Part shown: piece by piece, positions 6,408 to 31,993 of the stretch
How the letters are laid out: every line of letters starts with the position of its first letter
How positions within the stretch are numbered: position 1 is the stretch's first letter
Source: Betaproteobacteria bacterium
GTDB taxonomy: Bacteria; Pseudomonadota; Gammaproteobacteria; Burkholderiales; SG8-41
Assembly (NCBI GenBank): GCA_025363575.1
Contig: JANYDM010000004.1
Coordinates: 62,001 to 126,000 of the forward strand
Reading direction: 5' to 3'
Length of the DNA: 64,000 nucleotides
Program-made: the position numbers and the translations under genes
The notes under the pieces: model-generated
What the model was told of the DNA's origin: nothing
Database searches by the model: none
The model's input: only the letters and a program-made list of their open reading frames with translations

Positions 6408-8310
6408 ATTCACCATCAATCCAGGGGTCGAGCTTAGAAATTCCCGTCTCGAGATATATCAATTCCGCGTGCGCCTCGCCATTGCGTCGGCGTTCGTGCT
6501 GCTCGTGTTTTTCCTGCTGTTCGTGCGCTTCTTCTACCTGCAGGTCGTTCGTCACGACTATTACTCGACGCTGGCCGAGACCAACCGCATCTCGATCGTG
6601 CCTATCGTGCCCAACCGCGGCATTATCGTCGACCGCAAAGGGGTGCTGCTTGCCAACAATTATTCCGCGTATACGCTCGAAATCACCCCGCGCAAAGTCG
6701 AGGATGTCGAGGCGCTGATCGATGACCTGGCGACCGTCGTCGAAATCACCGCCAAGGACCGCCGCCGCTTTAAAAAACTCGTCGAGGAAAGCAAGAGCTT
6801 CGAAAGCCTGCCCATACGCACGCGTCTCTCAGACGAGGAAATAGCGCGTTTCGCCGCCAACCGCTATCGCTTCCCGGGCGTCGAGATCAATGCGCGCCTG
6901 TTTCGTCAGTATCCGCAGGCCGAGCTTTTTTCGCACGTGGTCGGTCACATCGGGCGCATCAATACGCGCGAAACCGAGCAGCTCGAGGCCGACGGCCTCG
7001 ATGCCAATTACCGCGGCACGGATTACATCGGCAAGGTCGGCCTCGAGCAAAGCTACGAAACGCATCTGCACGGCACGACCGGCGTGGAGGAAGTTGAAGT
7101 CGACGCCGCCGGACGCGCGGTGCGCACGCTATCGCGTTCGGCGCCGGTGTCGGGCAGCAATCTCGTGCTCAATCTCGACGCAGGCCTGCAGGAAGTCGTC
7201 TACCGCGCGTTCGGCGACTTTCGCGGTGCACTCGTTGCCATCGATCCGGCTACAGGCGGCGTGCTCGCGTTCGTTTCGAAGCCGGGCTTCGATCCCAATC
7301 TGTTCGTCGACGGCATCGATCCGCAAAACTGGAAAGAACTCAACGAATCGATTGACCGGCCGATGGTCAACCGTGCGCTCGCGGGCACTTATCCGCCCGG
7401 CTCCACCTTCAAGCCCTACATGGCGCTCGCGGCGCTCACGTACGGCAAGCGGCGTCCCGAGCAGGCGATAAGCGATCCCGGTGGCTTCAATTTCGGCGGC
7501 CATTTTTTCCGCGACGACAAGGTCGGCGGCCACGGCATGGTGGACATGTACAAGTCGATCGTCGTGTCGTGCGACACCTATTACTACATGCTCGCCAACG
7601 ATCTGGGCATCGACCATATCTCCACTTTCATGCGGCAGTTCGGCTTCGGCACGCGCACCGGCATAGACATCACCGGCGAATCGGGCGGCATCCTCCCCTC
7701 GCAGGAATGGAAAATGAAACGCTTCAAGCAGAAGTGGTACGCGGGCGAAACCATCAGCGTCGGCATCGGTCAGGGCTACAACTCCTATACGCCGCTGCAG
7801 CTCGCGCAGGCTGTGGCCACAATCGCCAACGACGGCGTGATGTTCCGCCCCCACATCGTCAACTACGTGGAGGACATCGTGACGCACAACCGTTCGGTGA
7901 TCGAACCGCAGCCGCTGCGCACGATAGAACTCAAGCCCGAGCATCTGCAGGTGGTCAAGAACGCACTGGTCGGCGTCAACAAGGAAGGGACGGGCGCCCG
8001 CGCTTTTGCCGGCGCGCCGTACACGAGCGCCGGTAAAACCGGCACTGCGCAGGTGGTCGCGATCAAGCAGGGCGAGAAATATGTCGAAAGTCGCGTCGCC
8101 GAACGCCATCGGGACCACGCGCTCTTCATTGCTTATGCGCCGGTCGACAAACCGAGAATCGCGCTCGCCGTGCTGGTCGAGAACGCCGGCTTCGGCGCGC
8201 GCACGGCGGCGCCGATCGCGCGCGCGGTGTTCGATTATTATCTTTTGGGCAAGCAGCCGACGCCGGTGAAGGCCGACGACGGCGCGGCGGTAGGGGCCAC
8301 GCGTGATTAG
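6400..8310 (+). CDS. mrdA: peptidoglycan D,D-transpeptidase PBP2
   Basis: PBP2 crosslinks peptidoglycan during side-wall growth, working with RodA. The protein (636 aa) starts with GTG, has one membrane anchor (about residues 29-49), a PBP dimer domain and a C-terminal transpeptidase domain. All three penicillin-binding motifs are present: S335-T-F-K338 (catalytic serine), S390-C-D392 and K546-T-G548. It overlaps mreD by 8 bases and rodA by 8 bases, so the block is translationally coupled. Confidence 0.97.
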   Translation: MSEFTINPGVELRNSRLEIYQFRVRLAIASAFVLLVFFLLFVRFFYLQVVRHDYYSTLAETNRISIVPIVPNRGIIVDRKGVLLANNYSAYTLEITPRKVEDVEALIDDLATVVEITAKDRRRFKKLVEESKSFESLPIRTRLSDEEIARFAANRYRFPGVEINARLFRQYPQAELFSHVVGHIGRINTRETEQLEADGLDANYRGTDYIGKVGLEQSYETHLHGTTGVEEVEVDAAGRAVRTLSRSAPVSGSNLVLNLDAGLQEVVYRAFGDFRGALVAIDPATGGVLAFVSKPGFDPNLFVDGIDPQNWKELNESIDRPMVNRALAGTYPPGSTFKPYMALAALTYGKRRPEQAISDPGGFNFGGHFFRDDKVGGHGMVDMYKSIVVSCDTYYYMLANDLGIDHISTFMRQFGFGTRTGIDITGESGGILPSQEWKMKRFKQKWYAGETISVGIGQGYNSYTPLQLAQAVATIANDGVMFRPHIVNYVEDIVTHNRSVIEPQPLRTIELKPEHLQVVKNALVGVNKEGTGARAFAGAPYTSAGKTGTAQVVAIKQGEKYVESRVAERHRDHALFIAYAPVDKPRIALAVLVENAGFGARTAAPIARAVFDYYLLGKQPTPVKADDGAAVGATRD

Positions 8311-9397
8311 GCGGATCCTGCGCGCCCTGACGACGCATATCGACAGCCAGCTGCTGATCGCAATGCTGATGCTCATGACGGTGAGCCTGGTGGTGATCTA
8401 CAGCGGCTCGAATCAGACCTACAGGCTGGTGTCGAGCCAGATGGCGAACATCGTCGTCGCCCTGGGCGTGCTGTACGTATTCGCGAACATCTCGCCGCAC
8501 TATCTGATGCGCATTGCGCTGCCGCTATACGTGCTCGGCATCATGCTTCTCATATGCGTCGCACTGTTCGGCGACATCGTCAACGGCGCGCGGCGCTGGC
8601 TCTACATCGGCGTCACGCGCATCCAGCCATCCGAACTCATGAAGATCGCGGTGCCGCTGATGCTCGCGTGGTACTTCGACCGCTACGAGACGACCCTCAG
8701 GCTGAAGAATTACATCGTCGCTGTCGTGCTGCTGCTGGTGCCGATCGGACTGATCGTGCGCCAGCCGGACCTCGGCACGGCGCTGCTGATTTCAGCCGCG
8801 GGCGGCTACGTGCTGTTCCTCGCCGGATTGTCGTGGCGCATCATCATAGGGCTCGGCGTTGCCGCCGCCGCATGCATGCCGTTCGTGTGGGGCATGATGC
8901 ATGACTACCAGCGCCAGCGCATTCTAACGCTGATCGACCCGACGCAGGACCCGCTAGGCGCCGGCTATCACACCATACAATCGACGATCGCACTCGGCTC
9001 CGGCGGCATTCTGGGCAAAGGCTGGCTGCAGGGCACCCAGACGCATCTCGACTTCATTCCGGAACGGACTACCGATTTTATCTTCGCCGTATTTTCCGAG
9101 GAGTTCGGCCTGCTCGGCAATACGCTGCTGCTCGTGCTGTTTTTGCTCGTCATCGCGCGCGGCGTCGTCATCACTGCCAACGCGCCCACGCTTTTTACGC
9201 GCCTTTTCGGCGGCGCAATCACCTTGACGTTCTTCACGTACGCATTCGTCAACATGGGCATGGTCAGCGGCATTCTGCCGGTCGTCGGCGTGCCGCTGCC
9301 GCTGGTGAGCTACGGCGGCACTTCATTGGTGACGATTTGTCTGGGCCTGGGGATCTTGATGAGCATCGAGACGCACAAAAAGTTGGTGCAATCTTGA
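8303..9397 (+). CDS. rodA: peptidoglycan glycosyltransferase RodA (SEDS family)
   Basis: RodA polymerises lipid II into glycan strands for elongation, paired with PBP2. The 364-aa protein has about ten membrane spans and SEDS motifs including NGARRWLYIGVTRIQPSE, RQPDLGTALL, FIPERTTDFIFAVFSEEFG and the C-terminal PLPLVSYGGTS. It begins with GTG (8303), 8 bases inside mrdA. The next gene, rlpA, follows after 8 bases. Confidence 0.97.
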   Translation: MIRRILRALTTHIDSQLLIAMLMLMTVSLVVIYSGSNQTYRLVSSQMANIVVALGVLYVFANISPHYLMRIALPLYVLGIMLLICVALFGDIVNGARRWLYIGVTRIQPSELMKIAVPLMLAWYFDRYETTLRLKNYIVAVVLLLVPIGLIVRQPDLGTALLISAAGGYVLFLAGLSWRIIIGLGVAAAACMPFVWGMMHDYQRQRILTLIDPTQDPLGAGYHTIQSTIALGSGGILGKGWLQGTQTHLDFIPERTTDFIFAVFSEEFGLLGNTLLLVLFLLVIARGVVITANAPTLFTRLFGGAITLTFFTYAFVNMGMVSGILPVVGVPLPLVSYGGTSLVTICLGLGILMSIETHKKLVQS

Positions 9398-9405
9398 AGC
9401 TAAGG

Positions 9406-10452
9406 ATGCGTGGTCCCGGGCCATTCATCCTTTGCCTGGCCCTCGCCGGCTGCGGCGGCATGGTTACGCGCGAAACGCCGGGCGTAGCCGCACGGACGCC
9501 TGATGGCGTTACGGCGCCCCCGCCCGCGGCGGCGAGCCGTCCCGTACCGCCCACATCGCGCGGCGGCGGTTACTATCTGAACGACGGGCCGGGCGACAAT
9601 CCGCCCGCGAATATCGAGCAGATTCCGGACGCAGTACCGCGCGCGGAACCACTGCGCCCTGCGAACATGCGTCCCTATTTGGTGATGGGACAGACCTACA
9701 CGCCAATGACGCGGCTTGCGCCTTACAAGGAACGCGGCATCGCTAGCTGGTACGGGCGCCGCTACCATGACCAGAAAACGTCGTCCGGCGAAATTTACGA
9801 CATGTACGCGATGACCGCGGCACATACCGTATTGCCGATTCCAAGTTACGCGCGCGTGACCAACCTCGCGAACAACAAGTCGATCGTCGTGCGCATCAAC
9901 GACCGCGGACCGTTTCATTCGGACCGCCTGATCGATCTTTCGTACACCGCGGCGTACAAGCTGGGCGTGCTTGGCGGCGGCCGGGCGATGGTCGAAGTCG
10001 AGACCATTATCGTAGACGCAGGAACGCTGGTAGTGCCTGCCGCCGTCTCCACTGCATCTGCGAACACCGTGATTGCAACGCCCGTGCCATCGGGCGTACC
10101 TGCGGCGGGCATCGCGTTGCCGCCCGAACCCGCTATCCCGCCTGCGGCCGCGGTGCCAGCCGCTTCTTCAGCGGAAAAGTCCGTGCCGTCAGTACCCGTT
10201 GTAGCGGAAGCCCCTGTGCAAAAAGGACTCTTCCTGCAGCTCGGCGCATTCGGCTCGCAGGACAACGCCGACACCTACCTCACGCGCCTGCGCGCGCAAG
10301 TCGACTGGCTGGCGCCGGCGCTGCACGTCTATTCGAAGGACGGCCTCTACCGCGTGCACGCGGGGCCGTATGTCAACCAGAGCGATGCGCGCGCCGCCGC
10401 GGACCGCATCAGCCAGGCGCTCGGCATCAAGCCGATGGTGCTTGTGAGATAA
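9406..10452 (+). CDS. rlpA: septal/rare lipoprotein A with SPOR domain
   Basis: RlpA is an outer-membrane lipoprotein; in Pseudomonas it is a lytic transglycosylase for glycan lacking stem peptides. With the ATG at 9406 the protein has 348 aa and a lipoprotein signal ending L-A-G-C (Cys16). A double-psi beta-barrel domain (GIASWYGRRYHDQKTSSGE ... AMTAAHTVLP ... INDRGPF) carries the His and Asp linked to catalysis. A Pro/Ala-rich linker and a C-terminal SPOR domain follow (LFLQLGAFGSQDNA to the end). A TTG at 9394 that overlaps the rodA stop is an alternative start and would add four residues. It converges with hslU, whose stop is 9 bases away. Confidence 0.93.
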   Translation: MRGPGPFILCLALAGCGGMVTRETPGVAARTPDGVTAPPPAAASRPVPPTSRGGGYYLNDGPGDNPPANIEQIPDAVPRAEPLRPANMRPYLVMGQTYTPMTRLAPYKERGIASWYGRRYHDQKTSSGEIYDMYAMTAAHTVLPIPSYARVTNLANNKSIVVRINDRGPFHSDRLIDLSYTAAYKLGVLGGGRAMVEVETIIVDAGTLVVPAAVSTASANTVIATPVPSGVPAAGIALPPEPAIPPAAAVPAASSAEKSVPSVPVVAEAPVQKGLFLQLGAFGSQDNADTYLTRLRAQVDWLAPALHVYSKDGLYRVHAGPYVNQSDARAAADRISQALGIKPMVLVR

Positions 10453-10461
10453 GCGCAGCTG

Positions 10462-11784
10462 CTAGAGAACGTAGCGCGCCAGATCTTCGCTTTGCGCGAG
10501 CCCCTTCAGCCGCTCGTCGACATAGGCGGCGTCGATGGCGAGCGTGGCGCCGGCGTGCTTCACCGCGTCATATGAAATTTCCTCGAGCAGCTTTTCCATC
10601 ACCGTGTGCAAGCGGCGCGCGCCGATGTTCTCGGTTCTCTCGTTGACCTGCCACGCGATCTCGGCGAGGCGCTTGACCGCCGCCGGGTGAAACTCGACCC
10701 TCACGCCCTCGGTCGCCAGCAATGCCTCGTACTGCCGCGTAAGACAAGCGTCCGTATTGGTCAATATCTGCTCGAAATCGGTGACTGACAGGCTCGCGAG
10801 TTCCACGCGGATCGGAAAGCGGCCCTGCAGCTCGGGTATCAGGTCGGACGGTCTGGCAAGATGAAATGCGCCGCTCGCAATAAACAGGATGTGGTCGGTC
10901 TTGATCATTCCGTACTTGGTCGTCACGGTAGTGCCTTCGACCAGCGGAAGAAGATCCCGCTGCACGCCCTGGCGCGAAACATCGGCGCCTGACATCTCGC
11001 CGCGGCTGGTTATTTTATCGATTTCATCGAGAAAGACGATGCCGTTCTGCTCGACATTGCCGATGGCGCGCACCTTGAGATCGTCGTCGTTGACCAGCTT
11101 GGCAGCCTCTTCCTCGGCCAGCAGTTTCATCGCTGCGCGTATTTTCAGCTTGCGCGATTTGCGCCGCGTGCCGCCCAGATTCTGGAACATGCCCTGGATC
11201 TGCGAGGTCATGTCTTCCATGCCGGGCGGCGCAAAAATCTCCATGTGCGCCTGCGGCGCGGCAACCTCCAGCTCTATCTCCTTGTCGTCGAGTTCGCCTT
11301 CGCGCAGCCGTTTGCGGAATTTCTGGCGCGTGGCGCTGTCGCTGTCAGCCGCCGACACGCCGTCACGCGCCGCCGGCAGCAACACGTCGAGTATGCGTTC
11401 TTCAGCCTGATCCTCGGCCTGGTGTCTTACCTTGCGCGTGGCCTCTTCGCGCGTCTGCTTGATCGCCGTCTCGACGAGATCGCGAATAATGGTGTCGACG
11501 TCGCGGCCGACATAGCCGACCTCGGTGAATTTCGTCGCTTCGACTTTGATGAAAGGCGCGCCGGCGAGCCGCGCAAGCCGGCGCGCGATTTCGGTCTTGC
11601 CGACACCGGTGGGGCCTATCATCAGTATATTTTTCGGCGTGATCTCGTGGCGCAGCGGCTCCGCCACCTGCTGCCGGCGCCAGCGGTTGCGCAAGGCGAT
11701 CGCGACCGCGCGCTTGGCGGCGTTCTGACCGATGATGTGCTTGTCCAGCTCGTGGACGATTTCCTGCGGGGTCATCTGGCTCAC
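10462..11784 (-). CDS. hslU: HslUV protease ATPase subunit
   Basis: HslU is the AAA+ unfoldase that feeds proteins to the HslV peptidase. It has 440 aa, Walker [16 protein letters not shown] near residue 57, the HslU-specific intermediate domain, and Walker [11 protein letters not shown]. The start is GTG at 11784: the resulting [20 protein letters not shown] aligns end to end with the E. coli N-terminus, whereas the ATG at 11775 would lose three residues. It lies 10 bases downstream of hslV and is expected to share its heat-shock promoter. Confidence 0.98.
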
Positions 11785-11794
11785 GCGGCCGCCT

Positions 11795-12331
11795 TCACTC
11801 GAGAACTTCGATCACGTGCTGCTGATTGGTGTAGATGCACAGATCGCCGGCGATCGTCAGCGCTTTCTTGACCACTTCTTCAGGGGGCATCTGCGTATGG
11901 TCGAGCAACGCGCGCGCCGCCGCCTGCGCGTAGGGCCCGCCGCTGCCGATCGCCACCAGTCCGAGCTCCGGCTCAAGCACGTCGCCATTGCCGGAAATGA
12001 TCAAGGAGCTTTGCGCATCGCACACCACGAGCATCGCTTCGAGCCGGCGCAACATGCGGTCAGTGCGCCAGTCCTTCGCGAGTTCGACCGCCGAGCGCAG
12101 CAGATTTCCCTGATGCTTCTCAAGCTTGGCCTCGAAGCGCTCGAACAGCGTGAACGCGTCCGCGGTGCCACCCGCAAAACCCGCGAGGATCTTGTCCGAA
12201 AACAGGCGGCGGACTTTGCGCGCGCCGGCTTTTACGACGATATTGCCGAGCGTCACCTGCCCGTCCCCGCCGAGCGCCACGCGCGCGCCGCGTCGTGCTG
12301 AAACTATTGTCGTGCCGTGAAATTGTTCCAT
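11795..12331 (-). CDS. hslV: HslUV protease peptidase subunit
   Basis: HslV is the N-terminal-threonine peptidase of the HslUV complex, related to proteasome beta subunits. The ATG at 12331 gives 178 aa starting [15 protein letters not shown]. Processing after Gly6 would expose the catalytic threonine of TTIVSARRG, as in other betaproteobacterial HslV proteins with short propeptides. The [15 protein letters not shown] motif is typical. The longer frame start at 12370 would bury the propeptide and is rejected. A sigma-32-like promoter lies 43-70 bases upstream. Confidence 0.97.
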
Positions 12332-12401: not shown

Positions 12402-13337
12402 TCACACCACGTTGTCGGGGGCCAGCGCGCACGGGCTGGCGGACGTTCCGGTTTCGACCTGGATGGTGACGTGGCCGATATGGTATGCGTGCTCGATGTC
12501 GTGCACGATGCGCGCAATGAAATCGTCGCCCGGGTGTCCGGCCGGAATGACCAGGTGCACAGTCAATGCGGTTTCGGTCGTGCTCATCGCCCAGATATGC
12601 AGATCGTGGACTTCCGTAACTCCATCGAGGCCGCACAGGAATTTCCGCACCGCCGCCGGGTCCACGCTGTCGGGCGCGGCATGCAGCGCGAGTTTGATGG
12701 AATCGCGCAACAACCCCCAAGTGCCCGCAAAAATGATGGCGACGATCGCTAGCGTCACGGCCGGATCCAGCCACAACCATCCCGTGAGCATGATGCCGGC
12801 GCCGGCGACTGCGACGCCGAGCGACACGCCTGCATCCGCCGCCATATGCAGATACGCACCGCGCACGTTAAGATCGTGCTTGCGGTCGGCCATGAAGAGC
12901 CATGCCGTCCCGCCATTGACGAGTATGCCGGCTGCGGCCACCCATATCATCAGACTTTCGTTAAGAACATGGGGACTCTGCATGCGCAGCACCGCCTCCC
13001 ATGCGATGCCGCCAGTTACGACCAGCAGCAGCATTGCATTCGCGAGCGCGGCAAGTATGGTCGAGCCGCGCAAGCCATAAGTAAAGCGCGCCGACGGCGG
13101 CCGCAGCGCCAGCGCGGAAGCGCCCCATGCGAGCACGAGTCCGACGACGTCGCTGAAGTTGTGAGCGGCGTCCGCCACCAGTGCCAGGGAGTTCGCCATC
13201 ATTCCGCAAATGACCTCGATCGCCACGAAGGCGATATTCAGCGCGATGCCGACGGCGAACGCACGCCCCAGGCGCGCACTGCGCGCGTGATGGTCGTGCG
13301 CATGATGGTGGCCGTGGGCGTGACTATGGGCGTGCAT
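12402..13337 (-). CDS. cation diffusion facilitator (zinc/cobalt/cadmium efflux) transporter
   Basis: CDF proteins exchange cytoplasmic Zn2+ or related ions for protons across the inner membrane. The 311-aa protein has a His-rich N-terminal tail (H at almost every second position in the first 17 residues), six membrane spans, and the two transport-site motifs HNFSD in TM2 and HMAAD in TM5, each with the His and Asp ligands. A cytoplasmic CDF C-terminal domain follows (VTEVHDLHIWAMS). It resembles CzcD/ZitB. It sits 51 bases downstream of a metal ABC permease gene, combining efflux and uptake functions in one locus. Confidence 0.93.
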   Translation of the reverse strand: MHAHSHAHGHHHAHDHHARSARLGRAFAVGIALNIAFVAIEVICGMMANSLALVADAAHNFSDVVGLVLAWGASALALRPPSARFTYGLRGSTILAALANAMLLLVVTGGIAWEAVLRMQSPHVLNESLMIWVAAAGILVNGGTAWLFMADRKHDLNVRGAYLHMAADAGVSLGVAVAGAGIMLTGWLWLDPAVTLAIVAIIFAGTWGLLRDSIKLALHAAPDSVDPAAVRKFLCGLDGVTEVHDLHIWAMSTTETALTVHLVIPAGHPGDDFIARIVHDIEHAYHIGHVTIQVETGTSASPCALAPDNVV

Positions 13338-13388
13338 GGAAGCTCTGGCGGAAACGGCGTTATTCTACTCGCGGCCGCCTGTCCGCGC

Positions 13389-14156
13389 TCAGCGCAGGCC
13401 GGCGGCCGCCCGCGGTCCTGCGGCATACGTCATGACGGCGAGCACCGACATGACCCACACGATGGCCGGGCCCGACGGCCAGTCCGTCATCGCGGACGTG
13501 ACGAGACCCAGGGCGTAACCTGCGGCGCTTAGTACATACGCAGCGACGAGGCGCCCCCGTTTGAAGCGCCGCGTGGCCAGCGCCGGCACTATCAGCGTCG
13601 TAAACACCAGATACAGGCCGACGAGCTGCACGGACACCGTCACCGCGCAGGCAAACAGCAGATAAAAAGTCACGCGGCCGATGCGGCCGCCGAGCGCGAA
13701 CCATACGAGCAGTATGGCCGCGTAGGCCACGGCGACCAGCGGCAGGCGGGCCGGATCAACCCACAATATCTGGCCGACCAGCAGGTCCTTGAGGTGTTCG
13801 GCGCCATGCGGATTACTCCCCAGCACGATAAGTGCCCCGCTTGCCGCCAGGATAAAGGTGACGCCGATCAATGCCTCCTGCACTTCCGGCCAGCGCTTGT
13901 CGGTCCACGTCAGCAGCAAAGCACCCGCACACGCCGCTGCCAACGCCGAGACTTGCACCGCCCAGCCTTGCGGCTCGAATCCCAGCCAATCGGCGCAGAT
14001 GACGCCGAGGCCGGCGATCTGCGCAATGGCCAGGTCGATGAACACGATGCCGCGCGCCAATACCTGGATTCCCAGCGGCACATGGGTCGCAGCGACTAGC
14101 ACGCCCGCGAGCAGCGCCGGCAGCAGGATCGTGAAGTCGAAGCCTGCCGTATTCAT
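13389..14156 (-). CDS. metal ABC transporter permease (ABC-3/ZnuB-like)
   Basis: The 255-aa protein is all hydrophobic segments, about seven to eight spans, and fits the ABC-3 family that imports Zn2+ or Mn2+. Recognisable parts are HVPLGIQVLARGIVFIDLAIAQ near the N-terminus and QLVGLYLVFTTLIVPALATR toward the C-terminus. It overlaps the binding-protein gene by 4 bases (ATGA), so both are made together. No ATP-binding subunit gene is next to it, which is unusual; the ATPase must be encoded elsewhere if the importer works. Metal specificity cannot be read from the permease. Confidence 0.88.
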   Translation of the reverse strand: MNTAGFDFTILLPALLAGVLVAATHVPLGIQVLARGIVFIDLAIAQIAGLGVICADWLGFEPQGWAVQVSALAAACAGALLLTWTDKRWPEVQEALIGVTFILAASGALIVLGSNPHGAEHLKDLLVGQILWVDPARLPLVAVAYAAILLVWFALGGRIGRVTFYLLFACAVTVSVQLVGLYLVFTTLIVPALATRRFKRGRLVAAYVLSAAGYALGLVTSAMTDWPSGPAIVWVMSVLAVMTYAAGPRAAAGLR

Positions 14157-15055
14157 TTTTTTACCGACAATAATTGCGCGATGCTGTCATCGAACAAGCC
14201 GAAGAGGTCCTTTGCTTTCGCATTGCCGCCCACCGTAAAAGGCAAAATCAGCACAGGAATCTTGGCATGATCGGCCAGCCAGTCGCCGCCGCGCGGGTCG
14301 TTGTACGCAGCGAGCACGATTGCTTTAGCCGGGTCGCGTTGGAGTTGAGCCAGTAAGCCGGACAAATGGCTCGCGGTCGGCGGCAGTCCCGGCTTGGGCT
14401 CCAGCGAGCCCACTTCGCGCATGCCCAGCCACGCGATCAGGTACGACACGTTCTTGTGATAAACGACGATGGGCAACCCCTTGAGCGGCGCCGCTTCTTT
14501 CTCCCAGCGGGCAATTGCCTGCTGCCAGCGGTCGAGAAATTCCTTGGTGCGAGCGCGATACATACTTGCCCCGCCCGGGTCGAGTTGCACCATGCGCTCA
14601 CTTAATACCACCGCGGCCTTGGCGATATTGCGCGGATCGAGGTGCAAATGCGGATTGCCGCCGGGATGAACATCGCCTTGAGAACGGTCTACCGACGAAG
14701 GCACCTCGAGCATGACTACGCTTTGCGCGATCTCAAGATAGCCGGGCTGGCCGACCTGGATTTTCGCGTTGCCGGCCTGGGTAAGCACCAACGGCAGCCA
14801 GCCGATCTCGAGTTGCGCTCCCGTGCACACGACCAGATCGGCGCTGCGCGCGCGCGCGATCAGACTTGGACGTGCTTCGACACGGTGTGGATCCTGCAGC
14901 GCGTTGGTTGCAATATAGACGTTGGCATTGTCGCCGCCGATCTCCTTGCTTAACGCGCCCCACTCCGGCGTGCACGCGAAAATATTGAGCGCCAATGCCG
15001 GCGCTGCGACGGCGAGCATGGCACCGAGGATCAGAAATCGTGGGATCAGGTTCAT
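14153..15055 (-). CDS. periplasmic metal-binding protein of the ZnuA/cluster-9 family
   Basis: This 300-aa protein has a Sec signal peptide (cleavage after about residue 22, ALA-LNIFA) and captures metal ions in the periplasm for the adjacent permease. Likely ligands are three histidines in DPHRVEARPS, NPHLHLDPRN and VVYHKNVSYL, plus the acidic residue of NDPRGGDWLA. There is no long His-rich loop of the type seen in E. coli ZnuA. It follows the outer-membrane protein gene by 18 bases and overlaps the permease gene, in a presumed operon. Zinc is the best guess from the neighbours; manganese is not excluded. Confidence 0.88.
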   Translation of the reverse strand: MNLIPRFLILGAMLAVAAPALALNIFACTPEWGALSKEIGGDNANVYIATNALQDPHRVEARPSLIARARSADLVVCTGAQLEIGWLPLVLTQAGNAKIQVGQPGYLEIAQSVVMLEVPSSVDRSQGDVHPGGNPHLHLDPRNIAKAAVVLSERMVQLDPGGASMYRARTKEFLDRWQQAIARWEKEAAPLKGLPIVVYHKNVSYLIAWLGMREVGSLEPKPGLPPTASHLSGLLAQLQRDPAKAIVLAAYNDPRGGDWLADHAKIPVLILPFTVGGNAKAKDLFGLFDDSIAQLLSVKK

Positions 15056-24146: not shown

Positions 24147-24154
24147 TCGCCCGC

Positions 24155-24321
24155 TCCCGAGGAGCGTTGCGACGGTCGCCTTCAGTGCGCCGCCAGGCTC
24201 GGGATGTCGGGTGGTACGAACAAAGAGGGCGATGCCCCCTTGTTAATTCCCCGATTCAGCGCAAGCCCGATAGCACGAAGATTCATACCGGGTTTGCCTG
24301 TGACAATTTGCAACGGCGCTC
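24155..24321 (+). promoter_or_regulatory. S-adenosylhomocysteine (SAH) riboswitch upstream of ahcY
   Basis: The sequence matches the SAH riboswitch core known from beta- and gammaproteobacteria. P1 pairs TCCCGAG (24155-24161) with CTCGGGA (24198-24204), the conserved GAGGAGCGTTGC and GCCAGGCTCGG blocks are present, and the pseudoknot pairs GAGCG/TTGC (24162-24170) with GCAA/CGCTC (24310-24321). In this family SAH binding turns on ahcY so that toxic SAH is removed. The linker between P1 and the pseudoknot strand is about 105 bases and holds one or two further hairpins. The ahcY ribosome-binding site GGAAAGGAG follows about 20 bases later. Confidence 0.88.
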
Positions 24322-24355
24322 ACGAACTTTTTTCTGCACAGGAAAGGAGCGCGTG

Positions 24356-27121: not shown

Positions 27122-27814
27122 ATGAAAACCGGGATCCTCACTGCCGTCAGTCTCGCCGCCCTATGCTGCACCGGTGCCGCGTCTGCGCAGGGCTTCAAGT
27201 TTTCGCAGCCGGACGACGGCGGCGCCAAAGCCAAAGAAGAAGCGCGCCAACAGGCGATTGCCGAGCGCCTTTCCACGCCTTGCCTCGACCAGCTCAAAGA
27301 CAAAAAAATTATGCTCATCATCGGTGAGCAGCAGACAGGCGGCGGCATCCAGGCCAACCAGGAAAATTACGGCCCGCATTTCCAGGCGATCAACCAGCGA
27401 CTCCGCGCGCTCGGGCTCAGGACTTACACGCCGGAAGAAATCAAAAAACAGATTGCACAAGCCGAAATCGATGCCTACTTCAAAGGCAATCCCGACGCCG
27501 CGCTTTCCGCGTCGCGTCGCCTCGGCGCGAGCTTCGTGCTGCGCGGTCTCATCACGTCGCAGGCAAGCGTGAATCCGGTGATTCGTGTAAATGAGGTGAC
27601 AGTCAACCTGGGCTTCTCGCTCGTCGACAGCGGCGGCTTCATGCTTTCCGATGCCGCCGCTCAGGGCGCCTCGTATTCGGGCAGCGATGTCCGCTCGACC
27701 GCGGCGCGGCTCATCAACGAGCAGGCCGATGAAGTTGTCGCCAGGCTGTATAGCGATTATTGTACGAAAGCGGCGGTCGCCGCACCCAAAGCGGAACCGA
27801 AACGCAAGAAGTAG
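27122..27814 (+). CDS. secreted FlgT/CsgG-like protein of the kinase locus
   Basis: The 230-aa protein has a clear Sec signal peptide (cleavage after ASA, about residue 22) and ends in a basic tail. Its body has the look of the CsgG/FlgT/LpoB-type alpha/beta fold: a strand KIMLIIGEQQTGGG, a helix HFQAINQRLRALGLRTYTPEEI, a strand GASFVLRGLI, a pair of long strands (VNEVTVNLGFSLVD), and a closing helix. The same order is seen in residues 525-660 of the kinase encoded two genes downstream. There is no lipobox. It begins a three-gene unit (gaps of 46 and 27 bases). Molecular function is unknown. The 145 bases upstream show nothing clear. Confidence 0.8.
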   Translation: MKTGILTAVSLAALCCTGAASAQGFKFSQPDDGGAKAKEEARQQAIAERLSTPCLDQLKDKKIMLIIGEQQTGGGIQANQENYGPHFQAINQRLRALGLRTYTPEEIKKQIAQAEIDAYFKGNPDAALSASRRLGASFVLRGLITSQASVNPVIRVNEVTVNLGFSLVDSGGFMLSDAAAQGASYSGSDVRSTAARLINEQADEVVARLYSDYCTKAAVAAPKAEPKRKK

Positions 27815-27860
27815 TTCGACCGCACCCGCACTTATGCTCATCTCTCAGGAGGGCCGAAAA

Positions 27861-28664
27861 ATGAAAATCCAATTCGCCGGAGCCATGCTGATCGCTGCGT
27901 CGGTTGCGCTATCGGGTATGAGCCAGGCCCAGCCGCGCTGGGGCGCTGAAAGCAGCCCGGCGCCTGCAACGTCGACATCGCAGAAAGCCAACGATGCGGC
28001 TGACCGCGCCGTGTACAAGCCGATCGAGTATCCGAACGCGGCTAAAGCCGGCCCGCCCGTCATCGTGATTCCCGGCGAGATCAAAAGCACCAACGCCACC
28101 TTCACGCAGAAAATCGGCGCCAACAATATCGCCGATTTCGCCGAGATCGAGCTGTCGAAGGCCAACTTCCCGGTTCTCGAGCGCACCAATCTTGGCCCGC
28201 TGCTCAATGAGTTCACGCTCGCCTACAACCTCGGCGATCAGGAAAGCGCGAGTAAGATGCTCGGCCGCGGCAAGCTGAAGACGACGAAATGGGTGCTTAA
28301 ATTCGACATACTCAAAACGGAGCAGGTCGCCGCGGCACAAAAAGGATTCGACGGCGGTTCGGTCGGCCGTATCATCGGAATCTTCGGCGGGCAAGGCGCC
28401 GCGATCGGCGGTACTGCGGTCGGATCGGTCAAGACCCAGGACACAACCGGCGTCTGGATCGTCGGCATGCGCTACAAGATCATGAACGCGGAGACGACCG
28501 AGCAAGTCGCGCAAGGCTACACCGAGGAAAAAATGGAAGTCGGCACGACGTCGACCTCGGTGCTCGGCGCCTCCAACGCGCAGCAAGGCGGGGTGACACT
28601 AGACACCATGGTGCAGCGGCTGATCCAGAAAACGGTGTGGGAAATCGACAGCAAGTACAAATAG
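27861..28664 (+). CDS. secreted CsgG-family protein of the kinase locus
   Basis: Starting at the ATG at 27861, 8 bases after AGGAGG, this 267-aa protein has a signal peptide (to about residue 23, MSQA-QPRWG) and a CsgG-type domain. The stretch FPVLERTNLGPLLNEFTLA resembles the CsgG signature around its conserved E-R pair, followed by KTTKWVLKFDILKTE and a Gly-rich loop before long strands. CsgG proper is an outer-membrane lipoprotein pore for curli; here there is no lipobox cysteine and no curli gene nearby, so a soluble periplasmic role is more likely. It lies 27 bases ahead of the kinase gene. Function unknown. Confidence 0.82.
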   Translation: MKIQFAGAMLIAASVALSGMSQAQPRWGAESSPAPATSTSQKANDAADRAVYKPIEYPNAAKAGPPVIVIPGEIKSTNATFTQKIGANNIADFAEIELSKANFPVLERTNLGPLLNEFTLAYNLGDQESASKMLGRGKLKTTKWVLKFDILKTEQVAAAQKGFDGGSVGRIIGIFGGQGAAIGGTAVGSVKTQDTTGVWIVGMRYKIMNAETTEQVAQGYTEEKMEVGTTSTSVLGASNAQQGGVTLDTMVQRLIQKTVWEIDSKYK

Positions 28665-28691
28665 GCGCGCTGCGCGGGACGACCTGACGCC

Positions 28692-31088
28692 ATGAGCGAA
28701 GCACCGGGCATACCCGCCAGGCTGGGCAAATACGAAATCCTGCGCGTGCTCGGGCGCGGCGCAATGGGCGTCGTGTACGAAGCATTCGACCCGAGCATAG
28801 AACGTACAGTTGCATTGAAAACAATACGCCGCGATCAGCTCGAGGGCGACGATGCGGCCGAAGTGATTACGCGTTTTCAGCGCGAAGCAAAAGCCGCGGG
28901 CCGCCTCAACCATCCGAACATCGTCGCCATCTACGATTTCGGCAATGACGGCGATACCACGTTTATCGCCATGGAGTTCGTGATCGGCCGCGAACTCAAG
29001 GCTCATTTTCAGAAGGACGAGCGATTTCCGCTGCCGGAGATCGCGCGCATCATGGGCGAGCTGCTTGACGCGCTCGAATATTCGCACAACTACGGCGTCG
29101 TCCATCGCGACATCAAGCCTGCCAACATCATCATTCGCCCCAATGGGCAGGTCAAAGTCGCGGACTTCGGCATCGCGCGCATCGAATCCTCGCAGTACAC
29201 GCAGGCTGGCTCCGTGCTCGGTACGCCTGCGTACATGTCGCCCGAGCAGTTCATGGGACAGACCGTCGACCGTCGCTCCGATATTTTTTCGGGCGGTGTC
29301 GTGCTCTATGAGTTCCTGACCGGCGAGCGGCCGTTCTCGGGTGCCGCGACGACCATCATGCACAAAGTGCTGACAGTCAATCCGCCGCCGCCGTCCAGGC
29401 TCAATGTGCAGGTACCGCGGCCCTTCGATGCCGTGATCGCCAAGGCCATGGCCAAACGCCCGGAGGATCGCTTCAAGACGGCTCGCGAATTTTCTGACGC
29501 GATCCGCTCGGCTGCCGACGGCATTAGGGTGCCGGGGCTGCCCGACGTCGATGTCACGGACGGCGGCACGGTCATCAACACCGCTGCCGATCCGAACGTC
29601 AATACCATCGCAGATCTGCTCGGCGAGCCTAAGACCCCGCGGACTACTCCTGCCCCGGCAGCTGTATCGAGCCCGGCAGCGGCGACACCAAAACGCAAAG
29701 CTCCCATGGTCGCTATCGCTTCGGCCGTGGCAGGCGTCTTCGCAGTCAGCATTGCAAGCTACTTCGTGATGACGTCGGGCAAATCGCGAGATCCGGCCGT
29801 CGCCTCGAGTGCAACACCACCGGCCGCTGCGGCTCCTGCGTCCGCGCCCGCAGCCGAGCCGGCGACGCAGGTCGCTGCAGCGCTGCCGCCGGTCGAGCCG
29901 GGCATGATGATAATCAGCGCGGTAGGCCTCGCGGACCCTAAAGACCAGAAATACCAGACGGACAAAGCTCTGCTCACGTCCGACGTGCGCGCCGACTCGA
30001 AAAGCCAGCTCGTCGAGAAAGCAATCGCGCTCTATCTCGACCGCGCATCGCTCGCCAAGAATTACGACCTGCTGCGCGAGAAGCTGTTGTCGAAGAGCGG
30101 CAGCTATATCGCGAGCATCGTGCAGGAAGGCGCGCCCGAACTCGGCAAGGATGGGCTCATGTACGTGACGACGCAGGCGGCAGTGCGCGTGCGCGAAGTG
30201 CAGAAATCGCTCAATCAGATGTCGCGCGACGAGCGCATCGACTTTATCCGCAACAATGGCGATCCCAAAATCTCCGTGGCGATCAGCGTGCGCGGCGAGG
30301 GCGATGCCGCCGTCGCGCAGAATTCACAAGTCGCCGGCAACCTGCTCAAGGTGCGCATCAAATCGTTCGGTTTCCGCATCTGGTCGGACGATGCGCCCGC
30401 GGCTGCGCCGGGTAGTGGCGCCGACTTCGCCGTGATCGGCGAAGCGCGGCTGAAGAAACTGTCGGCCAAACTTGAAGCCTCGGGCATCACTATCAGCAAA
30501 TACACGCTGACGTCATGGACAGTGAAGTGCGTCGACAAGCAGAGCGGCGAGGAAATCTATTACAACAACAATCTGCCGGTCGGTGCGGGCTCATGGTCGA
30601 CGGAAGAACAGGCGCTCGCCGCGATCGGCGGCAAAATTGCCGATGAATTCTCGCGCGATTTTTTCGTGCGGCATTTCAACGCTAACGGGCAAAAAGTCGC
30701 GCTTAAAATCGTCGGCCTGCCCGACAAAAGCGTGGAAGCCGGAATCGCCCGCGAACTGGTCGGGTTGCAGTCAGTGATCGGCGTCACGCGCCGCGCAGGT
30801 GCGCCGGCCGTCTATGATCTCCAGCTTTCCGGCGGCTCGGGACCGCTTACCGACCTGGTCGCGAACGCCGTATTGAAGCCACTGAATGCGAAGCTTGGCC
30901 AGGCGTGTTTCAACCTTGGCGCAACCAGTGGCGAACAGGTCACGGTCGCATTCGAGGCCGCGTGCGCGGATAAGTCCGTCTTGACCAAGCTCGACAGCAA
31001 TCCGCCCGCGTCGCTCTATGCCGCGCCGCCTGCCCGGCAGAAGCTGATACTGCACGATCCCGAGGCCATTAAAAAGGTGACGATCTAG
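28692..31088 (+). CDS. membrane Ser/Thr protein kinase with periplasmic FlgT/CsgG-like domain
   Basis: The 798-aa protein has an N-terminal Hanks-type kinase domain (about residues 12-270): glycine loop LGRGAMGVVYEAF, K43 in VALKT, catalytic D140 in HRDIKPANI, D158 in DFG, and GTPAYMSPEQ as the activation-loop end, so it should be active. A Pro/Ala linker, one membrane span (about 338-360), another Pro/Ala linker, and a C-terminal domain of about 400 residues facing the periplasm follow. That domain has a helical LPP20/FlgT-like part (about 405-510) and a CsgG-like part (about 520-660). No PASTA repeats are present. Two secreted proteins of related fold are encoded directly upstream, so they may be ligands or partners; this is inference. 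Confidence 0.92.
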   Translation: MSEAPGIPARLGKYEILRVLGRGAMGVVYEAFDPSIERTVALKTIRRDQLEGDDAAEVITRFQREAKAAGRLNHPNIVAIYDFGNDGDTTFIAMEFVIGRELKAHFQKDERFPLPEIARIMGELLDALEYSHNYGVVHRDIKPANIIIRPNGQVKVADFGIARIESSQYTQAGSVLGTPAYMSPEQFMGQTVDRRSDIFSGGVVLYEFLTGERPFSGAATTIMHKVLTVNPPPPSRLNVQVPRPFDAVIAKAMAKRPEDRFKTAREFSDAIRSAADGIRVPGLPDVDVTDGGTVINTAADPNVNTIADLLGEPKTPRTTPAPAAVSSPAAATPKRKAPMVAIASAVAGVFAVSIASYFVMTSGKSRDPAVASSATPPAAAAPASAPAAEPATQVAAALPPVEPGMMIISAVGLADPKDQKYQTDKALLTSDVRADSKSQLVEKAIALYLDRASLAKNYDLLREKLLSKSGSYIASIVQEGAPELGKDGLMYVTTQAAVRVREVQKSLNQMSRDERIDFIRNNGDPKISVAISVRGEGDAAVAQNSQVAGNLLKVRIKSFGFRIWSDDAPAAAPGSGADFAVIGEARLKKLSAKLEASGITISKYTLTSWTVKCVDKQSGEEIYYNNNLPVGAGSWSTEEQALAAIGGKIADEFSRDFFVRHFNANGQKVALKIVGLPDKSVEAGIARELVGLQSVIGVTRRAGAPAVYDLQLSGGSGPLTDLVANAVLKPLNAKLGQACFNLGATSGEQVTVAFEAACADKSVLTKLDSNPPASLYAAPPARQKLILHDPEAIKKVTI

Positions 31089-31102
31089 CGGAGTCCGCGA
31101 AA

Positions 31103-31993
31103 TCAGGCGCAAACGAAGGAGACGATCTCGGCGTCTTGCGCGCCTGACGTGTGGCCCAGGCAAATAACGCCGCGGCCGCGCAGCATGAGCTGCTCGCGTT
31201 TGAGCATGATTTCGGGATCGCTCTCGACCGTTACGTAGGTGCCATTGGTACTTTGGTCGACGAGGAAAAATTTGCCGCGCCGGCACTCGATTTTGCAATG
31301 CACGCGCGACGCCATCTTGTCCGGCACGACCAGCTCGTTGCCCGCATCGCGCCCGAGCGACGCCGCTTTTTTTTGCGCACCCAGCTCGATAGTCAGGGTG
31401 CTGTAAGTCAGCGACAGCGTAGCTTCATGCGTACTGACAAGCGATTCGCGCGAGGCGAGCGCCGTTAAGTCGCTGCTGTCGTGCCAGATGACTTCGAAGA
31501 TGCGGATTTCGTCCTGTTTGCCCTTGACCTGCATGGCGTCGATCTCGCGGGTTGCCGCTTTGAGCAGCGGAGAAAGACCGTCCACCGTGGGCCCGCTGGT
31601 GATGACTTGACCGCTTTTGGCGAGTCCCGCCATGCGTGCGGCGGTATTCACGGCGTCGCCGAAAAAATCGCCGCGTTCTTCGATCGCGGGACCGAAATGA
31701 AAGCCGACGCGAATGGCCAGGCGCACGCCATCGATCTGCGGCAACGCCGCAACGCGCTGCTGCATATCGCAGGCGGCCTGCATGGCGGCATCGGCGGACG
31801 GCAGTACCGCCATGACTTCGTCGCCAATTGTCTTGATAACCCGGCCGTCCTGCAGCACTGTGCTTTTGCGCAGCTCGGTGAGGACTTTCTCGATCGCGGC
31901 CAGTGCGCGCTGGTCGCCGAGCTTTTCGTACAGGCTCGTGCTGCCGCTGACGTCAGCAAACATGATCGCGCAGTGCCGGGATGCCCTAGTCAC
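31103..31993 (-). CDS. class III adenylate cyclase with C-terminal FHA domain
   Basis: The 296-aa protein starts with a class III nucleotide cyclase domain: metal ligands D14 (FADVSGST) and D58 (IGDEV), substrate residue K54, and D113, N116 and R120 in GDAVNTAARMA. The K54/D113 pair suggests ATP as substrate. Residues 190-296 form an FHA domain with G214-R215, S229-R230-x-H232 and N250-G251-T252, the residues that bind phosphothreonine. It converges with the kinase gene (14 bases between stops), so a natural model is that the kinase product marks a protein read by this FHA domain. The GTG start at 31993 lies only about 9 bases from a TATAAT box, so the mRNA may be leaderless. Confidence 0.92.
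   Translation of the reverse strand: MTRASRHCAIMFADVSGSTSLYEKLGDQRALAAIEKVLTELRKSTVLQDGRVIKTIGDEVMAVLPSADAAMQAACDMQQRVAALPQIDGVRLAIRVGFHFGPAIEERGDFFGDAVNTAARMAGLAKSGQVITSGPTVDGLSPLLKAATREIDAMQVKGKQDEIRIFEVIWHDSSDLTALASRESLVSTHEATLSLTYSTLTIELGAQKKAASLGRDAGNELVVPDKMASRVHCKIECRRGKFFLVDQSTNGTYVTVESDPEIMLKREQLMLRGRGVICLGHTSGAQDAEIVSFVCA

Follow-up and report, generated by a model that had tools for sequence, protein, structure and literature searches.

A candidate transmembrane signalling cassette of a membrane Ser/Thr kinase, two secreted proteins and a cyclase-FHA protein in Betaproteobacteria

In the threonine phosphorylation pathway of the type VI secretion system (T6SS; TagQRST/RtkS-PpkA-Fha-PppA), envelope proteins activate a membrane Hanks-type kinase, which phosphorylates a forkhead-associated (FHA) protein (excerpts of PMC10482370). 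Here we describe a four-gene cassette in a 64,000-nucleotide stretch of betaproteobacterial DNA (contig JANYDM010000004.1, positions 62,001 to 126,000; the window) which resembles this pathway in logic, but in which the FHA protein is a probable adenylate cyclase and the periplasmic part of the kinase is predicted to be FlgT/CsgG-like. T6SS genes were not recognised by eye among the recurrent neighbours of the cassette, for which no dedicated search was made. The GlnH-GlnX-PknG-OdhI/GarA system of Actinobacteria is also similar in logic (excerpts of PMC9769921), but PknG is separate from its receptor, the target regulates 2-oxoglutarate dehydrogenase and not cyclic AMP (cAMP) synthesis, and GlnX, unlike the periplasmic half of the kinase described here, is helical and has four membrane segments.

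The plan of this kinase, with a catalytic domain, a phosphorylatable linker, one membrane helix and an outer sensor, is shared with the PASTA kinases PknB, StkP and PrkC (excerpts of PMC12077195). However, a Pfam scan found no PASTA domain in it, and its score against the NCBIfam PASTA kinase family NF033483 (335.2 bits over residues 12-370) lies below the cut-off of 450. Ser/Thr kinases and class III-type cyclases likewise come together in Myxococcus Pkn2 and the TOMM kinase/cyclase (TIGR03903; excerpts of PMC1262709), but these are one-protein fusions, whereas here two proteins would meet via phosphothreonine in the company of CsgG/FlgT-like partners. FlgT, CsgG, PelC, LpoB, HpaA and the N-domain of TolB have the fold predicted for the centre of the periplasmic half and, on a poor model, probably for one of the secreted proteins, although the sequence-family cut-offs were not reached. 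The open-access literature yielded no paper joining FHA, adenylate cyclase, threonine kinase and CsgG, none joining CsgG, FlgT and protein kinase or metacaspase and CsgG, and, among the matches listed, no description of the cassette by title or abstract opening. We know of no protein kinase with a CsgG/FlgT-type fold. We place the cassette within Hanks kinase-FHA signalling; its type of sensor and its output are undescribed for such signalling in the searchable literature.

An earlier note, made from the letters of the window, had claimed three plus-strand genes and a fourth convergent with them, and this four-gene arrangement is confirmed. The open reading frames run g1, g2 and K (the kinase) on the plus strand, followed by C (the cyclase-FHA protein) on the minus strand, with gaps of 46, 27 and 14 bases. 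The genes and their parts, numbered in amino acids (aa), are:

27122..27814, plus strand: g1, a secreted protein of 230 aa with a suspected LpoB/PelC/CsgG-type fold; Cys54 and Cys214 are a probable disulphide
27861..28664, plus strand: g2, a secreted protein of 267 aa with a probable CsgG/FlgT-type fold; the window copy is without a lipobox
28692..31088, plus strand: K, a membrane Hanks Ser/Thr kinase of 798 aa (Pkinase E 5.5e-54)
28731..29477, plus strand: catalytic domain of K, aa 14-262, from Pfam and the catalytic residues
29475..29699, plus strand: juxtamembrane linker of K, aa 262-336; Thr293 in DGGTVIN is a degenerate form of [DE]xT[LVIM]
29700..29756, plus strand: predicted single membrane helix of K, aa 337-355, at the hydropathy maximum
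29874..31085, plus strand: periplasmic part of K, aa 395-798, of possibly FlgT-like plan with a predicted central CsgG/PelC/TolB-N-type domain (about aa 511-664); Cys739 and Cys758
31103..31993, minus strand: C, a class III cyclase plus FHA domain, 296 aa, convergent with K
31508..31978, minus strand: cyclase domain of C, aa 6-162 (Guanylate_cyc E 6.7e-18)
31463..31465, minus strand: Thr177 of C, with an acidic residue at -2, in the linker ahead of the FHA domain; a candidate phosphorylation switch
31229..31360, minus strand: FHA core of C, aa 212-255, with G214 R215, S229, H232 and N250 G251 (FHA E 8.3e-12)

We propose, with a probability of about 0.5, that the four genes form a conserved transmembrane signalling cassette leading from the envelope through K to phosphothreonine docking of C and a cyclase switch at Thr177. 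In this scheme g1, g2 and the FlgT/CsgG-like half of K would make up a periplasmic assembly that senses the state of the envelope, either of the peptidoglycan or of the outer membrane. The envelope signal would alter the activity of K, which would phosphorylate threonines in its own juxtamembrane linker, and the FHA domain of C would bind the resulting phosphothreonines and so place the adenylate cyclase at the receptor. K would then phosphorylate Thr177, between the cyclase and FHA domains, and phospho-Thr177 would be bound by the FHA domain of C itself, in cis or in a neighbouring molecule, with a change, up or down, in cAMP synthesis. Sequence analysis supplies the parts, their conservation and linkage, the fold of the K half (that of g2 on a weak model, that of g1 from weak profiles), the motif enrichment and the invariant Thr177, and each functional step with its sign is inferred. 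The acidic-x-Thr motifs of the linker, together with the acidic-x-Thr177 close to the FHA domain, offer a possible physical basis for a path from kinase through FHA domain to cyclase. The linker motifs, the acidic-x-Thr177, a free form of the periplasmic half of K and caspase-g1 fusions, all described below, are additions to the earlier note.

The kinase, cyclase and FHA motifs had been read as complete, and this reading stood. K scores 183.8 bits against PF00069 (cut-off 31.7), and the catalytic K, E, HRD, N and DFG residues are present in 53 of 53 aligned K sequences. C scores 65.4 bits against PF00211 (Guanylate_cyc; cut-off 21.9) and 45.8 against the FHA family PF00498 (cut-off 20.7). All 47 kinase-adjacent C rows, two of them repeats (L092 = L003 and L123 = L011), retain D14, D58, K54, D113, N116 and R120, which presumably supply the two metal Asp, the adenine-type Lys/Asp and the Asn/Arg of the cyclase. 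C probably makes cAMP. The phosphothreonine-binding GR, SxxH and NG of the FHA domain are found in 46 or 47 of the same 47 rows, and Thr177 and a D or E at -2 each occur in all 47. Among the PADLOC matches listed (PD-T4-6, Pycsar), those of K, for the best 25 of 35, span the kinase and linker part, and those of C cover the cyclase domain only.

The distribution of the cassette was followed with a scan for g2, in which two peptide patterns were run against one genome per species (84,980 species) and returned 78 loci. Counting only loci where the contig permits assessment, g1 adjoins g2 in 68 of 71 (including L027, a caspase fusion), K lies downstream of g1-g2 in 56 of 61, and a convergent C comes after K in 37 of 53, within 300 bases of the match ends in 34 and further away in three (L022, L064 and L068). 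Most of the locus titles are those of betaproteobacterial metagenome-assembled genomes (MAGs), joined by Azospira, Methyloversatilis, Sulfuritalea, Sulfurisoma and others; Azospira oryzae (L024) and Methyloversatilis universalis (L021) are cultured hosts with all four genes, and the loci closest to the window cassette come from uncultured Betaproteobacteria. A record titled as a Bordetella parapertussis MAG (L006; label unchecked) has g1, g2 and K as in environmental MAGs. The gene hprK lies on the same stretch in 33 of the 78 loci, in 31 of them with rpoN, whereas metF is common to L002, L003, L005 and the window, so the cassette is not bound to one chromosomal site.

Whether homologues of the four genes would be scattered independently had been raised in the earlier note, and they co-occur. 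An even sample of 250 genomes from the Azospira order had the periplasmic part of K in 10 and g2 in 12, with g1 in the same 12 (the 10 K genomes and two more). Of the K genomes, three (G010, G030 and G039, from which L011 comes) had been in the locus set beforehand, and the other seven are additions to it. A cyclase-FHA protein reaches E <= 1e-50 in 53 of the 250, and a score of at least 418 bits is reached in every one of the 10 K genomes and in 1 of 240 others (G032), in a scoring confined to the top first-look candidates per genome. Besides the seeds G010 and G030, all eight K genomes have g1, g2 and C, and in all eight C is convergent beside K, including G081, where g1-g2 is relocated behind C, and G124, where K is split by contig ends. 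K and full-length C are missing together in G012, G027, G049 and G203. Among 27 K genomes (of 30 searched), 24 have a full-length C somewhere. Wider samples gave the Azospira seed, G394 and one weak match among 274 genomes of the class, and the seed, G656 and one weak match among 398 genomes of the phylum; as the G394 and G656 matches are free of a kinase domain, no kinase-fused K was found beyond the seed in these two samples. Thus the cassette is mainly betaproteobacterial and uncommon. At E <= 0.001 the relatives among scored candidates numbered 1774 for the periplasmic part of K and 3282 for g2.

The linker between the kinase domain and the membrane helix of K is rich in the motif [DE]xT[LVIM], with 111 motifs in 55 linkers and at least one in 53 of the 55. 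Shuffling the linkers 1000 times gave 4.8 +/- 2.2 motifs with a maximum of 12, which rules out mere composition as the cause. The density per 1000 aa is 26.7 in linkers, 2.7 in kinase domains and 1.35 in periplasmic parts, and the linker motifs often stand in tandem, for example DATLVN and then EATLVS. A second set, of protein search homologues with a located linker, carries the motif in 102 of 105, with 152 motifs against 8.5 in shuffled linkers. Fourteen other Hanks kinases of the fetched loci have four motifs in 1540 aa, all in L085, L086 and L138 (54-55% identity), so the motif is not general to Hanks kinases. Linkers have a mean of 2.3 motifs where C is adjacent (n = 34) and 1.5 where it was shown not to be (n = 14; Mann-Whitney p 0.005, uncorrected for kinship), a comparison that excludes seven loci where C could not be assessed. 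The sole motif-less linkers, those of L015 and L058, belong to genomes without K-type C.

On the outer side of the membrane, the CsgG/FlgT-type folds suggested in the earlier note held for the periplasmic half of K, were seen in g2 on a poor model, and are suspected in g1 from weak profiles. A structure model of the K half has a pLDDT of 85.6 and supports a CsgG/TolB-N/PelC-type fold at the centre of aa 395-798; the VIA fold matches of this central domain include FlgT, CsgG, PelC, LpoB, HpaA, the TolB N-domain and LptE. The VIA lists gave no further family outside model residues 117-270, where absence is uninformative, and profiles of solved structures gave chance-like matches only. Cys739 and Cys758 are kept in 52 of 53 rows, the remaining one having a gap. 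A Pfam scan gave no match above cut-off for g1 or g2. The former scores 12.6 bits against LpoB (PF13036; curated cut-off 22.3), with sub-threshold LpoB matches in 15 of 27 members (best E 0.016), and its matches to solved-structure profiles are mostly spurious SAM synthetase, plus PelC at E 0.078; an LpoB/PelC/CsgG-type fold is suspected from these profiles. Its cysteine pair, Cys54 and Cys214, is kept in 67 of 67 homologues. The window copy of g2 has no Pfam match to CsgG (PF03783), which is matched by 5 of 17 g2 members (best E 0.0032) below the curated score, and solved-structure profiles gave none for g2 at E <= 1. Its poor model indicates that g2 probably has a CsgG/FlgT-type fold, with less firmness than for the K half. 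Comparison of g1, g2 and the K half by hhalign gave nothing significant (at best 2.1% probability, K half against g1).

CsgG, PelC, a FlgT-type ring and TraT, all ring formers, are among the fold matches of the K half and, on its poor model, of g2. It could be that g1, g2 and the K half build or gate a ring in the outer membrane or peptidoglycan after the manner of CsgG, PelC or FlgT, with the kinase regulating assembly and cAMP as a side output; control would then run from kinase to ring and not from ring to kinase. The trio may have a job of its own, since it occurs without a fused kinase at L132 (G394; 7228-10398, minus strand). The periplasmic half there is a separate protein between g1 and g2, whose start looks by eye like a signal peptide; the C-terminal end of the g2 protein is PG_binding_1 (E 5.1e-17), and g2 scores 16.3 bits against CsgG (cut-off 20.8). 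An LPP20-domain protein lies ahead of g1 there, and a separate Hanks kinase is on the opposite strand (12904-14490). The half is also free at L155 (G656), near a contig end. A ring nevertheless seems rather unlikely: in the listed clusters of neighbouring genes, no substrate, pilin or polysaccharide genes were seen by eye to recur next to the cassette, g2 has no lipobox by a simple pattern in 71 of 75 main copies, unlike CsgG, and the same fold occurs in TolB and LptE, which are not known to us as rings. The lipobox is thus rare (4 of the 75), and g2 was not classed as a lipoprotein. Some g2 copies (L027, L047, L060, L071 and L121) carry a Cys that looks lipobox-like by eye, and a tandem second copy of g2 occurs in L020, L027, L038, L055, L060, L070, L071 and L121. 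For the proposed cassette, L132 and L155 give the strongest indication of cooperation between g1, g2 and the K half outside the inner membrane, near peptidoglycan.

Several observations weigh against the envelope-to-cyclase scheme. The g2 model is weak, and the suspected fold of g1 is drawn from profiles. The linker of K in the window is without a strict motif, DGGTVIN having its D at -3 from Thr293, and related sequences are included in the linker counts. Sixteen of 53 loci have no adjacent C, and K-type C is absent from 9 of the 27 K genomes: G002, G020 and G024 have K with no full-length C found, and G005, G006, G014, G015, G016 and G019 have a C of a different clade only, with another Hanks kinase within about 4 kb in five of these six. 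The earlier interpretation is supported in part; an obligatory place for C in the system is not supported, since C stands beside K in 37 of 53 loci. Five of seven scored linkers from genomes without K-type C keep the motif, so other FHA proteins, or another use of the motif, are possible. K might signal mainly elsewhere, to cell-wall or division proteins as do PknB and StkP, its linker recruiting various FHA proteins and C being an optional reader. The linker of pneumococcal StkP has seven phosphorylated Thr and is reported to be likely dispensable for kinase activation but needed for cell division (excerpts of PMC12077195). The occurrence of C of at least 418 bits in every K genome of the order sample and hardly any other, and the larger number of motifs per linker where C is adjacent, argue against such a role for K, which we consider unlikely.

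Thr177 also occurs in 35 of 38 cyclase-FHA proteins not adjacent to K, with the acid at -2 in 31 of 38. It is therefore not specific to K-linked C and belongs to a wider cyclase-FHA family. On a tree of 85 cyclase-FHA proteins the K-adjacent C are clustered, with 10 label changes against 28 in shuffles, and these changes rule out a single clade; several of the interspersed rows are relocated C in K genomes (L093, L094, L095 and L096, with K at L020, L067, L072 and L043). C of the K type without K is found in G032, G041, G089, G131, G138, G197 and G022. Such genomes, four of them with C beside metF as in the window region, might suggest that C is an unrelated neighbour that stands beside K by chance, but the convergent placement in all eight non-seed genomes, one of them with g1-g2 moved, and the joint absence of C and K from four genomes make this very improbable. 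The C genes beside metF in the K-less genomes G041, G089, G131 and G197 may be remnants of a lost cassette. A C-related cyclase-FHA gene beside metF, a possible cassette remnant, was seen at L136, L137, L139 and L140, in genomes that gave no match to g1, g2 or K. Other cyclase-FHA genes lie within a few kb of other Hanks kinases at L085-L088, L090 and L104, and the pairing of kinase and cyclase-FHA protein may be a wider theme.

Seven loci with sufficient downstream flank have no K (L027, L033, L047, L060, L071, L121 and L122). In four of them g1 is the tail, or C-terminal third, of a caspase-domain protein with a signal-like start:

L121, 10046-11560, minus strand: caspase-g1 fusion, caspase domain by Pfam (PF00656)
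L071, 7573-9054: caspase-g1 fusion, caspase domain by Pfam (PF00656)
L027, 8402-9904: caspase-g1 fusion, caspase domain by Pfam (PF00656)
L122, about 9290-10720, minus strand: caspase-g1 fusion, by tblastn and translation

These fusions adjoin one or two copies of g2 (two in three of the four loci), and in their genomes no K and no full-length C were found. A caspase was not seen in L033 or L060, and L047, with only 273 upstream bases, lies outside judgement; the genome of L060 has C and no K. At L071 a Hanks kinase with a cyclic-nucleotide-binding domain (10982-12256, plus strand) lies close behind g2, an independent hint that the g1/g2 module may meet cyclic nucleotides. The caspase fusions hint at one shared envelope sensor whose outputs can be exchanged. 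We tentatively raise, as a possibility with the odds against it, that g1 and g2 are an unrecognised CsgG/FlgT-type envelope-sensing module at the peptidoglycan with swappable outputs, which would be a kinase and cyclase coupled by phosphothreonine-FHA docking in most genomes, or a caspase-like protease fused to g1.

The surroundings of the cassette in the window are housekeeping genes by eye, with metK, ahcY and metF upstream and an aminotransferase and TtcA downstream. An S-adenosylhomocysteine (SAH) riboswitch precedes ahcY (window positions 24153-24328, plus strand; 44.7 bits against a gathering score of 37) and is ordinary.

If the proposed pathway is true, Ser/Thr phosphorylation and cAMP, which are usually studied apart, would be joined in one gene cluster, and a kinase would have a sensor domain of the CsgG/FlgT fold type. 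The acidic-x-Thr motifs near the membrane represent a directly testable docking mechanism. If the module reading is true, it would provide Gram-negative bacteria with a path by which the condition of the envelope governs cAMP or regulated proteolysis.

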